The notes under the pieces are model-generated. The model worked only from the letters and a program-made list of their open reading frames with translations, made no database searches and was not told the origin of the DNA. Made by a program: the position numbers and the translations under genes. From Planctomyces sp. SH-PL62 (GTDB lineage Bacteria > Planctomycetota > Planctomycetia > Isosphaerales > Isosphaeraceae), in the NCBI RefSeq assembly GCF_001610895.1, contig NZ_CP011273.1, positions 2,480,001 to 2,544,000 on the forward strand: DNA of 64,000 nucleotides, given 5' to 3'. Below, piece after piece: positions 28,577 to 34,542 of the stretch; within the stretch, counting starts at the first letter, position 1; every line of letters starts with the position of its first letter.

Positions 28577-29803
28577 TCAGCGGGACGCGAACGAGCGGTT
28601 GACGACGGTGTTGAAGAGTTCCTTGGCCTTGGGGGCGTTGGAGGAAGATCGGACGACCTCGAACCCTTCGACCTTGTGAGACGGGATCACCTTGTTGATG
28701 AGGGTCTCGATCTCGGTCAGGGGCTCGCCCTGGTCCGGGCCGACGAACAGGTAGGCGACGCCGTCCTTACCCATGCGGCCGGTGCGGCCGATGCGGTGGA
28801 CGTAGTTCTCCGGGTCGTCCGGGATGTCGTAGTTGACGACGTGGCTGATGCCGGCGACGTCGATGCCGCGGCCGACGACGTCGGTCGCCACCAGGATCGG
28901 GATCGAACCGGCGCGGAAGCCGGCCATGACGCGGTCGCGGGCCGTCTGGGCGAGGTCGCCGTGGATCGCCGCGACGCCGGGGATCGTCCGCCGAAGCCGC
29001 TCGGCCAGCCGATCGGCGCCGCGCTTGGTCCGGGTGAAGACGATGCACTGGCGGGGCTGATCGCGCTTGAGCAGGTGGACGAGCAGCTCCATCTTCCGGT
29101 CGTGGTTGACCGAGACGTAGAACTGCTGGATCGTCTCGACCGAAGGCTCGTCGGTCGACAGGTTCAGCTCGATCGGCTCGTGCATGTAGCGGTGGCTGAG
29201 GGTGCGGATCTCGGGGCTGATCGTGGCCGAGAGCAGCATCGTCTGGTGGGGGACGGGGAGCTGCCGCATGATCCTCTCGATGTCGGGCCGGAACCCGATG
29301 TCGAGCATCCGGTCGGCCTCGTCGAGGACCAGGTGGAAGATGTCCCCGAGGTACAGCGTGTGGCGCTCGATGTGGTCGAGCACGCGGCCGGGGGTGCCGA
29401 CGGCGATGTCCAGGCCGCGGCTCAGGACGCGGATCTGGCGGTCGATGGGTTCGCCGCCGTAGAGCCCGCAGATCGACACGTCGGCGCGGTTCTGCGCCAG
29501 CTTCTTCAGCTCGACGACGATCTGCTGGGTGAGTTCGCGGGTCGGCGCCAGGATGATGGCCTGCGGGCCTCGGCCCCGGGCTTCCAGCATTTCGATCAGC
29601 GGGATGCCGAAGGCGGCGGTCTTGCCGGTCCCCGTCTTGGCCTGCCCAAGGACGTCTTGGCCGTCGAGGGCGTGGGGGATGAACTCGGCCTGGATCGGTG
29701 AGGGGGTGTGGTATCTGGCGATCGCCAGGGCCTTGAGCATGCTGGGGCTCAGGCCCATCGAGCGGAAGCCCGAGGCGGGCGCCTCCTTGACTGAACGAAT
29801 CAA
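28577..29803 (-). CDS. DEAD-box ATP-dependent RNA helicase
   Basis: 408 residues from the TTG at 29803, which has GGAGG 6 bases upstream; an ATG at 29896 gives 31 extra, unlikely residues. Motifs in order: Q-motif TPSPIQAEFIPHAL, motif I AKTGTGKT at 55-62, PTRELTQQ, TPGRVLDHI, DEAD in VLDEADRMLD, SATISPEIRT, then IVFTRTKRGAD, ATDVVGRGIDVAG and HRIGRTGRMG. It unwinds or remodels short RNA duplexes, typically in ribosome assembly, mRNA decay or cold growth. The C-terminal extension of about 60 residues is short. The intergenic leader of about 90 to 300 bases upstream could hold cold-responsive control, but I cannot show it. Confidence 0.95.
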   Translation of the reverse strand: MIRSVKEAPASGFRSMGLSPSMLKALAIARYHTPSPIQAEFIPHALDGQDVLGQAKTGTGKTAAFGIPLIEMLEARGRGPQAIILAPTRELTQQIVVELKKLAQNRADVSICGLYGGEPIDRQIRVLSRGLDIAVGTPGRVLDHIERHTLYLGDIFHLVLDEADRMLDIGFRPDIERIMRQLPVPHQTMLLSATISPEIRTLSHRYMHEPIELNLSTDEPSVETIQQFYVSVNHDRKMELLVHLLKRDQPRQCIVFTRTKRGADRLAERLRRTIPGVAAIHGDLAQTARDRVMAGFRAGSIPILVATDVVGRGIDVAGISHVVNYDIPDDPENYVHRIGRTGRMGKDGVAYLFVGPDQGEPLTEIETLINKVIPSHKVEGFEVVRSSSNAPKAKELFNTVVNRSFASR

Positions 29804-30232
29804 ACAATCCTCCGAAGAAAACTCAGCGAGTGTGACGTGGGTGGTGTGGTGAGGGCCGGATGCGTCAGACGCGCCGCGCCCCGATTTCCTATCCATTCAA
29901 TTCTTCATGGTGAACTTATCAGACCATGACGCCGCCGTCAAAGGCAAGACGTCGCCCCCCGCCGATTGGTTCGAAATCTCTTGCCCAACCGGACCTGGGG
30001 GCCGGAGGGGGGGGCGGGCCGCCTGCCACGGCCGAGCCGGGCATAGCGTAGGGTCGGGGGGTCCGCCGTCCCGGAAGGAAATCGTCGCCGGGCGCTTGCC
30101 TCGGGTGCGTCCGTCGATGGACAATCGGGTTTGGGGCGGGCCTCGCCCCGCCTCGCCCGGAGCGGGCCGTCGGGACGCGCCGGTCGTCCCGCGCCCCAAC
30201 GAGGACATGGACCTCGCGAAAGGAGAATCGAC
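29804..30232. other. 429-base divergent intergenic region
   Basis: It separates the helicase (minus) from a small plus-strand gene and holds both promoters. Near 29880-29930 the DNA is relatively A/T-rich (TTCAATTCTTCATGG and following). I see no gene and no clear operator. The upstream reading of the helicase frame may extend to 29896. Confidence 0.45.
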
Positions 30233-30619: not shown

Positions 30620-31012
30620 ATGATCACGACCCAGTCCTCGACACCACGACCCCGCCGCCTCCGCGCCGCCATCATCGGATTCGGGCTCGACGGCGGCGAC
30701 GACCAGCAGCGTCTGACGCGAAGCGCCCAGTGCCTGGTCGTCGGCGGTTCCGCGGAGACGCACGACGCGATGCGCGAGGCCGTGACCCGGATCGAGCTCG
30801 AGCTCGAAGCGATGCAGTGCGAGCTCGGCGACCTCGACCCCGACGACCTCGCCGAGCTGGCGTTCCGGGTGGACCTCCCCGAGCTGCACCACCTCGCCGT
30901 GAGGCTGGAGGACGGCCTGGAACGCCAGGGCCGCGACTTCATGGACCTCTCGGCCGAGGAGCTGGGGGCCTTGCTCGACCTGGAAGACTCCGAGGCCGCG
31001 GTCGGCTCCTGA
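30620..31012 (+). CDS. Small acidic protein, unknown
   Basis: 130 residues from the ATG at 30620. It begins with a basic short stretch (RPRRLRAAIIGFGLDG) and ends in an acidic Leu/Asp/Glu-rich helical part (ELELEAMQCELGDLDPDDLA and ELGALLDLEDSE). In the middle is SAQCLVVGGSAETHDAMREA. The N-terminal IIGFGLDG resembles the start of planctomycete small proteins that act with sensor or ATPase genes, but I do not recognise a family. A stem-loop follows 41 bases after the stop. Function unknown. Confidence 0.6.
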   Translation: MITTQSSTPRPRRLRAAIIGFGLDGGDDQQRLTRSAQCLVVGGSAETHDAMREAVTRIELELEAMQCELGDLDPDDLAELAFRVDLPELHHLAVRLEDGLERQGRDFMDLSAEELGALLDLEDSEAAVGS

Positions 31013-31053
31013 GCCCGCCGCGTCGATCGTCTCGGACCCGGCCTCGACCTCCA

Positions 31054-31098
31054 TCGGCGGCGCCTCGGCCTTCCCTCAAAGGACCGAGACGCCGCCGA
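31054..31098 (+). terminator. Stem-loop after the small acidic protein
   Basis: A stem of about 19 bp with one bulge and two G-U pairs (TCGGCGGCG...CTCGG with its complement) closes a CCCTC loop. There is no long T run behind it, so it may be a weak or Rho-independent-like terminator or only an RNA structure. Confidence 0.45.
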
Positions 31099-31278
31099 TC
31101 GGCGTTTCAGGGCCGGGCTCCCGGCCCAACCGGCTCCCCTTCGCCGCCAAGAATCGGCGAGAATGGGCGAATCGCTGAAACGGAGCCCCTCCCTCTCGGG
31201 TAACACCCTTCGACCGGCGCGTGGTCGGCGAAGCCCCGAGGATGGAGACGGGCGGTGGACCGGGCGGGCTGATCGACG

Positions 31279-31818
31279 ATGGACGACCTCTTGCTGGTCG
31301 AGGCGATCCGGTCGGGCGACCCCCAGGCCCCGCGCGAGTTGATCGCGCGGTTCCAGGGGGTGGTGTTCGGCCTCTGCTTCCGGATGCTCAACCATCGGCA
31401 CGACGCCGAGGACGCGATGCAGGAGACGTTCGTCCGGGCCCTGCGGGGGATCTTCGGATTCGACGCGACGCGGCCGATCCGGCCCTGGCTCCTGGAGATC
31501 GCCGCCAACCGTTGCCGCACCGCCCTGGCCTCGCGGGCCCGACGCCCCCCCTCGGCCGAACCATCCTGGATCGTCGATCAGGCCGACCTCCGCTCCGTCC
31601 CGCCCGACCCGGACGACCTGGCCGGCGAGTTGGAACTGGCGCTGGGCCGGCTCCGGCCGGAATACCGTCTCGTCTTTGCGCTTTTTCATGAGCAAGGGCT
31701 CTCGTATGAGGAGGTCGCGCAGGCCGTCGGCCGACCGATCGGGACCGTGAAGACCTGGCTGCATCGAGCCCGAGCGGAACTCGCCGCCCATCTCGCGAGC
31801 CGCGGGGTTCGATGCTGA
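31279..31818 (+). CDS. ECF sigma factor (sigma-70 family)
   Basis: 179 residues, normal for ECF sigma factors. Region 2 is PQAPRELIARFQGVVFGLCF followed by NHRHDAEDAMQETFVRALRG, and region 4 is LSYEEVAQAVGRPIGTVKTW followed by LHRARAELAAHL. A short linker replaces region 3. It directs RNA polymerase to specific promoters under control of the anti-sigma protein next to it. Its stop overlaps the next start (bases 31812-31818), so the anti-sigma is made in step. The preceding 250 bases show no obvious ECF consensus of the kind usually autoregulated that I could assert. Confidence 0.92.
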   Translation: MDDLLLVEAIRSGDPQAPRELIARFQGVVFGLCFRMLNHRHDAEDAMQETFVRALRGIFGFDATRPIRPWLLEIAANRCRTALASRARRPPSAEPSWIVDQADLRSVPPDPDDLAGELELALGRLRPEYRLVFALFHEQGLSYEEVAQAVGRPIGTVKTWLHRARAELAAHLASRGVRC

Positions 31819-32618
31819 CCCCGACCAACTCGAACCGGACACGGACCATGAACTGCCGCGATTTCGATCAAGTCTGGAACCAGCTGCTCGACGCCGAGGC
31901 CGGTCGCCGTCGCGACGCGGGGGAACGACCGGCGTCCGGCCACGACCGCGAGGCGAGCCTCCGCGAACACGCCGAGGCGTGCCCGCCTTGCCGGCTCCGC
32001 CACGCCCAGTTCGAGACCCTGCGGGCCGCGCTGCGGTCCTGGTCCGCCCGCCCGCTCCCCGCCCCGGCCGACGCGGCGGGGGCCGCCGGGCGCATCCTCG
32101 AGGCCGTCGCCGACGCCCCGGCCCTCCCGATGCCCGCTCCCCCCCGCCGCCTCGGCCGCCGTACGGGGCTGGTCGCGCTGGCGGGGCTCGCCGCCGCGGC
32201 GGCCTGCTTCTACCTGATGATCGCCCGTCCCGAGCCGGTCCGGCCCGACGCGCACGCCCCCGCGGCGGTCGAGGGCTCGCTGCGGACGGCGGTCGCCGAC
32301 GCCCGCGACGCCTCGTTGCGGCTCGCCCGGACGGCCTCGGAGCCGGCCGCCCGGCTGGGCCTCGCCATGCTCGACGCCTCGCTCGCCGCGGGCGACGGCT
32401 CGACGGTCGGCGGGGGCTCGCCGTTCATCGAGCCGATCCCCATGTTCGACCCCTCGGCGTTCCGCCCGGCCCTGCTGGACCACGTCGGCGACTACGCCGC
32501 CGCCGGCGCGCGGCCGCTCTCCGACACGGCGAGGCAGGCGTTCGGCTTCCTCCGCTCGCCCCGGCTCGCGACCCCCGAACCGCCCGCCGTCCCCCCCGCC
32601 GATCCCGAGGGAACCTGA
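31812..32618 (+). CDS. Anti-sigma factor with zinc-finger (HxxxCxxC) motif
   Basis: 268 residues. The HxxxCxxC motif (HAEACPPC) at 53-60 is the zinc-binding anti-sigma signature; a single membrane segment (GLVALAGLAAAAACFYLMIA) at about 119-138 follows. The N-terminal cytoplasmic part should hold the sigma factor, and the C-terminal domain (about 140-268) lies outside and could sense a signal. It is rich in Ala/Pro/Asp. An internal ATG at codon 13 would also give a good start. It overlaps the sigma gene and is followed by the secreted-protein gene with a single base between stop and start. Confidence 0.88.
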   Translation: MLTPTNSNRTRTMNCRDFDQVWNQLLDAEAGRRRDAGERPASGHDREASLREHAEACPPCRLRHAQFETLRAALRSWSARPLPAPADAAGAAGRILEAVADAPALPMPAPPRRLGRRTGLVALAGLAAAAACFYLMIARPEPVRPDAHAPAAVEGSLRTAVADARDASLRLARTASEPAARLGLAMLDASLAAGDGSTVGGGSPFIEPIPMFDPSAFRPALLDHVGDYAAAGARPLSDTARQAFGFLRSPRLATPEPPAVPPADPEGT

Positions 32619-32619
32619 C

Positions 32620-34542
32620 ATGACGAGCCGCCTGCAACCGCCGGCCCCCCCCCATCGACGCCGACACCGAGAACGATCACCCGACTCGCGGGGGGCCGTG
32701 GGGCTCGCGACCCGTTCCCTCCTGGCCTCGATGGCGCTGGCGATGGCCCTCGCCGGGGGCGCCCGCGCCGACGGCCCCGCTCCGGCCGCCGACGAATTGC
32801 TCCGACTGGTGCCGGTCGAGGCCGGCGCGGTGCTCGCCGTGGACGACCTGAGGGGTCGCTGGGAAACGGTCGTGAAGTCCAGCCTGGCGCGCGAGGTCCA
32901 GGAACTGCCGATGTTCCGCGCCTGGATCGGCTCGCCCAACGTCACCGACTTCCGCCAGGCGCGCGACCGGATCCTGGGCTTCCTCCAGGTCTCCCACGGA
33001 CAGGTCCGGGACGACATCCTCGGCGACGCGGTGGTCCTGGCGATCTTCCTCCCCGAAGGCCGCTCGCTCGACCCTTCTCACGCGCGAGGGCTCCTGGTGC
33101 TGAAGGCCCGCGACCCGGCGCTGCTCCGCCGGCTGATCGACCGCATCGACGAGGCCCAGCGGAGCGGCGGCGAACTCGCCGAGGTCGTCGAGGCCGAGCG
33201 CGGGGGGACGACCTACGCCACCCGCCGCTACCCGAAGGGCTCCCCCCAGCTCCCGGAATCGTACGTGCTGTTCCCCGACGGCGTCTTCGCGTTCTCGAAC
33301 TCCGAGCCGTTGATCCAGGACGTGATCGACCGCAAGACCGGGGCGGGCGCGGCCGGGTCGTCGTTCATCGACGCCCCCGGATTTCGCGAGGCGGCCGACG
33401 GCCTGTCGGGCCGACCGCTGGCCCGCGCGTTCGTGGCCCCCGGCCTCGTCTCGCGGGTCCTCGACAGCATGCCGTCGGAGAACGACCCCGGCGGTCGCAA
33501 GGTCGTCGACGCCTTGCGCGATTACCTGGCGGCGACGAACCGCGTCGGCGCGGCCCTGATCGTGGACGACTCCAGGGTTCAGCTCCAGCTCGTGCAGGCG
33601 TTCAAGCCCGAGTCGTTCCACCGCCTTCACGAGTCGACGTTCGTCCCGTTCCGGACGGGGACGGACGGCATCGGCCCGGGGCCCCGGCTCCTCGACATGC
33701 CGGCGTCGGCCTTGGCGGCGGCCTCGTTCCGCATCGACGTCCCGGGCGTCTACCGTTTCCTCGTCGGCCTGGCCCCCGAGAAGGACCAGCCCAAGGTCGC
33801 CAAGCTGGAGACCATCGCGACCGCGCTGCTGATGGGCCTGGACCTCCGAAGCCGCGTCCTGCCTGCGCTCGGCCCCCGGATGATCGCCTACGCCGAGGCG
33901 GCCGACGCCGCGTCCGGGGCGCGCGACGGGAGCCTCGCGTTCCCCGCCGTCGCCGCGATCGAAATCAACGAGGAGGCCGCGCGCGACCTCGGAGGCGGCG
34001 GCTCGCGCGCCTCCACGGCCGAGGCCCTGGGCAACGCCCTGAAGGCGGTTCTGGCGGCGCTGGCGCTGGATGAGAAGCGGGCGCCGGCGACCGCCCAGGT
34101 CCGCACACGCGACGGCGTCACTTCGCTCGATGTCCCGTATCCCTTCGCCTTCGCGATCGACCCCCAGTCGCGTCGGCTGATCGTGGGGACTTCCGCCGAG
34201 GCCGTCGCCCGCTACATGGAGGCCGGCGCCGACGCCCACGCCGGCGACCGCTTCCGCGCGATCAGGGCCGCGGCCTTTCCCGACTGCGAGGCCTTCGCCT
34301 ATCTCGACCTGATCGCGTTCGGTGACCTGGCCGTCAAGCATCGCGACTTCTTCGTCAGGGCGACCGCCCGCCGCCAGGGCCGGTCGGACGAGGTCGTCGC
34401 GCCCGAGTTCGACCAGTTCATGAGCCTCGCCCGCCTCTTCGACGCCGCCTATCTTTCGGGCCGGGTCGACGCCGAGCAGGCCCGCGTCGAGCACCGGATC
34501 GGGCTCTTGTCCCGCCCGCCCGCCTCGCCCGCGAGCCCCTGA
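32620..34542 (+). CDS. Secreted protein of the sigma/anti-sigma operon, unknown
   Basis: 640 residues, with signal peptide. It starts one base after the anti-sigma stop, but GTG at 32698 (codon 27) gives a shorter, more canonical signal peptide (GLATRSLLASMALAMALAGG). The mature region shows DELLRLVPVEAGAVLAVDDL near the start, the repeated alpha/beta pattern LARAFVAPGLVSRVLDSMPS and TDGIGPGPRLLDMPASALAA, and ends FDQFMSLARLFDAAYLSGRV. The start resembles the planctomycete-type secreted DUF3352-like proteins; I do not assign a domain with certainty. Its tight position suggests it is a product or part of the sigma-factor response, or provides the signal to the anti-sigma. Confidence 0.75.
   Translation: MTSRLQPPAPPHRRRHRERSPDSRGAVGLATRSLLASMALAMALAGGARADGPAPAADELLRLVPVEAGAVLAVDDLRGRWETVVKSSLAREVQELPMFRAWIGSPNVTDFRQARDRILGFLQVSHGQVRDDILGDAVVLAIFLPEGRSLDPSHARGLLVLKARDPALLRRLIDRIDEAQRSGGELAEVVEAERGGTTYATRRYPKGSPQLPESYVLFPDGVFAFSNSEPLIQDVIDRKTGAGAAGSSFIDAPGFREAADGLSGRPLARAFVAPGLVSRVLDSMPSENDPGGRKVVDALRDYLAATNRVGAALIVDDSRVQLQLVQAFKPESFHRLHESTFVPFRTGTDGIGPGPRLLDMPASALAAASFRIDVPGVYRFLVGLAPEKDQPKVAKLETIATALLMGLDLRSRVLPALGPRMIAYAEAADAASGARDGSLAFPAVAAIEINEEAARDLGGGGSRASTAEALGNALKAVLAALALDEKRAPATAQVRTRDGVTSLDVPYPFAFAIDPQSRRLIVGTSAEAVARYMEAGADAHAGDRFRAIRAAAFPDCEAFAYLDLIAFGDLAVKHRDFFVRATARRQGRSDEVVAPEFDQFMSLARLFDAAYLSGRVDAEQARVEHRIGLLSRPPASPASP

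Follow-up and report, generated by a model that had tools for sequence, protein, structure and literature searches.

The window analysed here, a stretch of 64,000 nucleotides from Planctomyces sp. SH-PL62 (contig NZ_CP011273.1, positions 2,480,001 to 2,544,000), contains a compact forward-strand cluster in which the gene for an ECF sigma factor is followed by genes for an anti-sigma factor and an exported protein. The first-pass annotation had described these three genes; a small upstream gene and a predicted promoter are conserved parts of the locus lying outside that trio. The features are as follows.

30620 to 31012, + strand: small upstream protein "up", from adjacency and alignment (likely start 30620, ORF-finder start 30536)
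31045 to 31112, + strand: hairpin between the upstream gene and the promoter (-38.2 kcal/mol, z -4.77)
31176 to 31202, + strand: predicted ECF-type autoregulated promoter, TGAAAC-N17-GGTA, from aligned genomes and loci counts
31279 to 31818, + strand: ECF sigma factor, 179 aa (Pfam, NCBIfam, sigma tree)
31848 to 32618, + strand: predicted single-pass anti-sigma factor, 256 aa from the start supported by relatives (homology, HxxxCxxC, hydrophobic segment, family conservation)
32620 to 34542, + strand: exported two-domain protein, 640 aa, by its sequence a diverged DUF3352 relative (Pfam, relatives, model)
32785 to 33360, + strand: domain 1 of the exported protein (modelled alone with pLDDT 94.3; structural matches PknH, TiME and TP0453)
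33658 to 34254, + strand: domain 2 of the exported protein, similar to domain 1, a likely internal duplication (hhalign, element order)

ECF sigma factors are abundant in planctomycete genomes. The first ORF of the trio, already called a sigma factor, is confirmed as one of them by matches to Sigma70_r2 (E 1.4e-15, 57.3 bits) and r4_2 (E 9.9e-16, 57.6 bits), giving a short protein with sigma-70 regions 2 and 4 as expected of the ECF type, and it scores above the cut-off of TIGR02937 (82.5 against 42.9 bits). It falls below the cut-offs of the Rhodopirellula/Verrucomicrobium sigma family TIGR02989 (70.7 against 124.55 bits) and of the SigW NCBIfam models (84.1 against 209 and 77.2 against 243.1). 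The nearest named relative among the matches listed (best 80 of 225) is from Paludisphaera soli, with 93% identity, on which ground the window is taken to come from a Paludisphaera-like member of the Isosphaeraceae. A sigma tree of 81 rows, built by a quick method, mostly mirrors taxonomy and supports Isosphaeraceae-type and Gemmataceae-type clades. Two contigs (L165 and L172) that bear the labels Singulisphaera and Gemmataceae are near-identical in the sigma region, and one is probably mislabelled or misbinned.

The second ORF is likewise confirmed as anti-sigma-like, with an HxxxCxxC motif and one hydrophobic segment. The overlap of the sigma stop with the anti-sigma start reported in the first-pass annotation does not hold up: relatives align from M(NCRDF), at 31848, and the ORF-finder start at 31812 is rejected on this homology. 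Of five congeners examined, none offers an in-frame start codon shortly before the anti-sigma match: four lack one throughout the open frame upstream, and L004 has its nearest ~600 bases upstream. The overlap is therefore probably not real, and the sigma and anti-sigma genes are likely separated by a gap of 29 bases. HxxxCxxC near the N terminus is the mark of zinc-type (ZAS) anti-sigma factors. The window protein carries it as HAEACPPC, and its match to Pfam zf-HC2 is under the gathering score (E 0.41, 11.2 against 22.2 bits). Among loci from the best 80 of 225, the motif is present in 69 of 79 anti-sigma rows. It is absent, for example, from the Gimesia-like loci L063-L067 and from L136, L137 and L140, Gimesia-type anti-sigma factors of the unit having lost it. 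The hydrophobic segment (KD mean 2.3 in the window; >1.6 in 70 of 78 rows from the same best 80 of 225) suggests a topology with a single membrane helix. A conserved C-terminal motif of the anti-sigma factor was considered as a binding mark for the exported protein and dropped, because, among the rows listed, it persists in loci that have the sigma/anti-sigma pair without the exported gene.

The third gene begins one base past the anti-sigma stop, as originally noted, and its 640-residue exported ORF is confirmed, with an N-terminal hydrophobic signal-like segment; such a segment stands directly before the mature core in 57 of 58 relatives. Conservation of this gene beside the sigma/anti-sigma pair had been proposed as the check on the trio, and the outcome supports it. 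The exported protein is present in 35 of 45 Isosphaeraceae genomes (22 of the 26 better ones), and all three genes occur together in 34 of these 35, the locus of the 35th being cut by a contig end and not testable. The sigma and anti-sigma genes adjoin the exported gene in 28 of 30 fetched Isosphaeraceae loci; one of the remaining two shows the trio in a longer stretch, as do five further genomes. Beyond this family, seven loci from one other family of its class carry the trio. Thirteen more distant exported-protein relatives (L068-L080, of which 11 match the exported-protein profile) stand alone with no such sigma gene nearby, and L086 is another.

A sigma-alignment scan extends the comparison to 80 named loci, the best 80 of 225, where profiles recover 78 anti-sigma genes and 59 genes for the exported protein. 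Six of the 21 loci without the exported gene end too near the anti-sigma gene (L103, L115, L130, L147, L153 and L170), so that the trio is present in 59 of 74 testable loci from several families, and 15 of 74 hold the pair alone. Most loci without the exported gene are Pirellulaceae-type or Planctomycetaceae-type; L156 and L168, where downstream sequence is limited, are among those without it. Other neighbours are rarely kept in the same 80 loci (KHE-like 1/80, endonuclease-like 1/80, sulfatase 4/80, BatD-like 8/80). A DEAD-box helicase gene (28577-29896, - strand) lies near the cluster in 9 of these best 80 of 225. Given its conservation across genomes and families, linkage of the trio is far above chance, and the loci retaining the pair alone show that the exported protein is not obligatory for the switch.

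Upstream of the sigma gene, TGAAAC and GGGTA are invariant and constantly spaced in five aligned Paludisphaera genomes, and a sixth agrees. The pattern TGAAAC-N16/17-SGTA occurs ≤300 bases upstream of the sigma gene in 50 of 79 named loci (best 80 of 225; L131, where the upstream sequence is absent, is excluded), comprising 41 of 58 loci with the exported gene and 9 of 21 without it. The number expected is 0.16, from 10 boxes in 1.44 million other bases of the same loci, or 0.02 from shuffles. Spacing is 17 in 45 sites and 16 in five, and the -10 element is GGTA in all 50. These counts suggest that the sigma factor recognises the TGAAAC-N17-GGTA box. A scan for sigma-70-type promoters gave none.

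A count over six Paludisphaera genomes gives 38 boxes, against 22 for a reversed control, so many single matches are due to chance. Thirty of the 38 sites were examined. The box precedes the sigma operon in 6/6 genomes, a PSCyt2/PSD1 gene (Pfam) in 5/6, and a gene for a 244-residue membrane protein in 4/6; in the window's genome the second of these is followed by a DUF1501 gene and the third by a gene for a HlyD-type adaptor. At the PSCyt2 site the flanks have diverged across genomes while the boxes and their spacing are unchanged. These other predicted targets are unlinked to the sigma cluster. A further box lies at the same place inside an HtrA-like protease gene in Paludisphaera L184, L206 and L214; it is left out of the regulon since its conservation is probably that of the coding sequence, an internal promoter being a possibility. 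A looser pattern gave 12 matches in the window's genome, four of which are one identical sequence that we take to be rRNA and dropped.

The small upstream gene, which is single-copy in the window's genome (6.78 Mb), encodes a protein with the motif LGxGLDnxDGHxRLTRGxxFxLvGGSxETHxxMQE that has no match in Pfam, nor in NCBIfam among 34 members. It lies directly before the sigma gene, in the same orientation, in 36 of the 80 named loci (best 80 of 225), and its product is found in 110 of 248 genomes of class Planctomycetia. Among the matches listed (exported-protein matches being taken down to E 1.6e-61), 69 genomes carry both the upstream protein and a high-scoring exported protein; the two genes share a contig in 51, and in 47 of these 51 the upstream gene is ≤5 kb upstream of the exported gene on the same strand. 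The hairpin following it, an inverted repeat roughly kept in congeners, is possibly the end of the upstream transcript; a scan for T-run terminators did not call it and found none.

The exported protein had been described as being of unknown fold; its length stands, and its fold is now refined by a confident model. In sequence it appears to be a distant relative of DUF3352 (PF11832): the window protein matches the family under the gathering score (E 3.2e-4, 19.9 against 26.8 bits), and 19 of 59 relatives match at E ≤ 0.01 (best 6.4e-14), with members ranging down to ~14-25% identity. Among the 59 members, NCBIfam gives one stray match in one member, and the RseB/MucB Pfam family gives none at E ≤ 0.01. 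Solved structures searched with the family alignment gave no match at E ≤ 0.01 (best 0.029), and a first scan of genome contigs with the window's exported protein as query found no relatives.

The AlphaFold model of the whole exported protein, made with 59 sequences, has pLDDT 90.9 and pTM 0.88. Strands and helices run in matching order in its two halves, and a single hhalign comparison of the domain 1 and domain 2 sub-alignments gives E 3.8e-4 with probability 36%; because the profile evidence is one pair at that probability, an internal duplication is likely, not proven. Foldseek with the whole model returns TP0453 of Treponema pallidum as the sole protein at E ≤ 0.001 (six chains, best 1.6e-5), and VIA-align superposes the two with Z 10.4 and rmsd 5.4 over 214 residues. 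With domain 1 alone, Foldseek finds nothing at E ≤ 0.001 (DcrB comes closest, 4.8e-3); the evidence for the fold link is therefore the whole-model match to TP0453 together with VIA-align. In the latter, domain 1 matches the extracellular domain of Mycobacterium PknH (Z 9.7, rmsd 3.6, 129 residues), Mycobacterium TiME (Z 8.7, rmsd 3.4, 124 residues) and TP0453 (Z 8.6); the MucB C-terminal domain (Z 5.9, rmsd 4.3, 87 residues) lies in the range below Z 8 that may reflect common architecture. As modelled, the exported protein thus appears to resemble TP0453 and the PknH sensor domain.

The anatomy of the locus gives good support to a positively autoregulated sigma/anti-sigma switch. At rest, the ECF sigma factor would be held by an anti-sigma factor that a single helix anchors in the membrane. 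An envelope signal would release the sigma factor, which would then start transcription at TGAAAC-N17-GGTA promoters, those of its own operon (sigma, anti-sigma and exported protein) and of a few envelope-type operons. The exported protein, presumably periplasmic and composed of two similar domains, would be made in step with the switch, and its most likely role is to sense a lipid or some other ligand in the envelope, or to act on the anti-sigma factor from outside as a buffer, in the way that RseB acts on RseA. By analogy, we tentatively propose an autoregulated envelope-signalling unit of the Planctomycetia in which the exported protein feeds back on the anti-sigma factor in an RseB-like manner, a proposal that we put at a little below an even chance. 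The signalling unit is consistent with the promoter box before sigma and before orthologous Paludisphaera operons; against the predicted regulon, box totals in the six genomes are only moderately above the reversed control.

Of the readings considered, feedback from the exported protein to the anti-sigma factor leads; it is also the least certain part, weakly supported and slightly more likely to be wrong than right. Linkage is kept across families despite sequence divergence, with other neighbours much less kept; the gene order is that of rpoE-rseA-rseB, which by analogy would favour feedback; and the best structural neighbours of the model are TP0453 and extracytoplasmic or sensor domains, with the MucB C-terminal domain a weaker one. 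Against it stand the 15/74 pair-only loci (best 80 of 225), the C-terminal motif that persists in such loci, the MucB match in the common range and the lack of an RseB/MucB Pfam match in the 59 members. Mirror-tree-type covariation is positive and not specific to the external part of the anti-sigma factor (partial r of the exported protein 0.32 with the external part and 0.35 with the cytoplasmic part). The same pair-only loci and unspecific covariation would suit a pure output, in which the exported protein is an effector, for example in lipid handling or envelope maintenance, that does not regulate the anti-sigma factor. Such a role is a serious contender, nearly as likely as feedback, given also the lone relatives without this sigma nearby and the whole-model match to TP0453, which is a proposed lipid carrier (PMC5421087). 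There is, however, no need for a gene that is just one target among several to remain next to the switch across families, and the other predicted targets are unlinked to it.

The upstream gene raises a different possibility, that of a four-gene unit in which the small cytoplasmic upstream protein is a second regulator and the exported protein is secondary. Its frequent position before sigma and close to the exported gene would fit, as would its presence at three pair-only loci (L127, L142 and L150); but loss or relocation is more frequent for it (on the sigma tree of 81 rows it changes 11 times, the exported gene 4 times), and a hairpin and promoter stand between it and sigma, which makes this arrangement improbable. 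That linkage reflects descent alone, with no functional meaning, is very hard to credit: the sigma tree does show vertical inheritance, but other neighbours seldom persist over distances as great. Returning to feedback, a broader version would make tandem-domain DUF3352-like proteins an unrecognised class of ECF envelope input proteins, a planctomycete counterpart of RseB composed of a repeated TP0453/PknH-like sensor domain, with the small cytoplasmic upstream protein as fourth component; this is speculative and rather unlikely.

The first-pass description of a candidate undescribed regulatory system is a fair one as far as the literature searched goes, in which no paper on the unit was found; the main ECF catalogues lie outside it. 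Within the planctomycete ECF literature, no title or opening abstract describes this sigma/anti-sigma/exported unit; no paper on DUF3352 and no characterised planctomycete ECF sigma factor were found in the literature searched. The sigma group may already be catalogued in the ECF classification, since the ECF re-classification and two planctomycete surveys are outside that literature. What emerges is an old unit that comes with a likely promoter code, candidate target operons (the PSCyt2/DUF1501 operon, and the membrane protein followed by the HlyD-type adaptor) and an exported companion of predicted fold. An unnamed gene cluster thereby becomes a directly testable system, with a first hypothesis for DUF3352 proteins.

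Among known systems, the PknH sensor domain is fused to a kinase, and PknH and TiME are single domains with 10-11% identity to domain 1. TP0453, at ~10% identity the best structural match of the whole model, is a spirochaete lipoprotein with a solved chain of ~250 residues, which is not known to have a sigma partner. The SigW promoter of Bacillus subtilis, as given in PMC2375139, shares the -35 TGAAAC and the spacing of 16-17 with the planctomycete box, whereas its -10 element is CGTA and that of the planctomycete sites is GGTA in 50/50, which sets the box apart from the SigW type. MucB/RseB proteins grip helix I of the anti-sigma factor (MucA) with their C-terminal domain and bind lipid with the N-terminal one (PMC7400510). 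Compared with these proteins, the planctomycete exported protein is ~2x as long, consists of two similar domains and has no RseB/MucB Pfam match; compared with the RpoE and AlgU systems, the planctomycete anti-sigma factors mostly carry HxxxCxxC, and part of the family does without the exported gene. Shared with RpoE-RseA-RseB of E. coli and AlgU-MucA-MucB of Pseudomonas are the predicted autoregulation and the order of sigma factor, single-pass anti-sigma factor and exported protein, the exported gene standing third, in the position of RseB and MucB.
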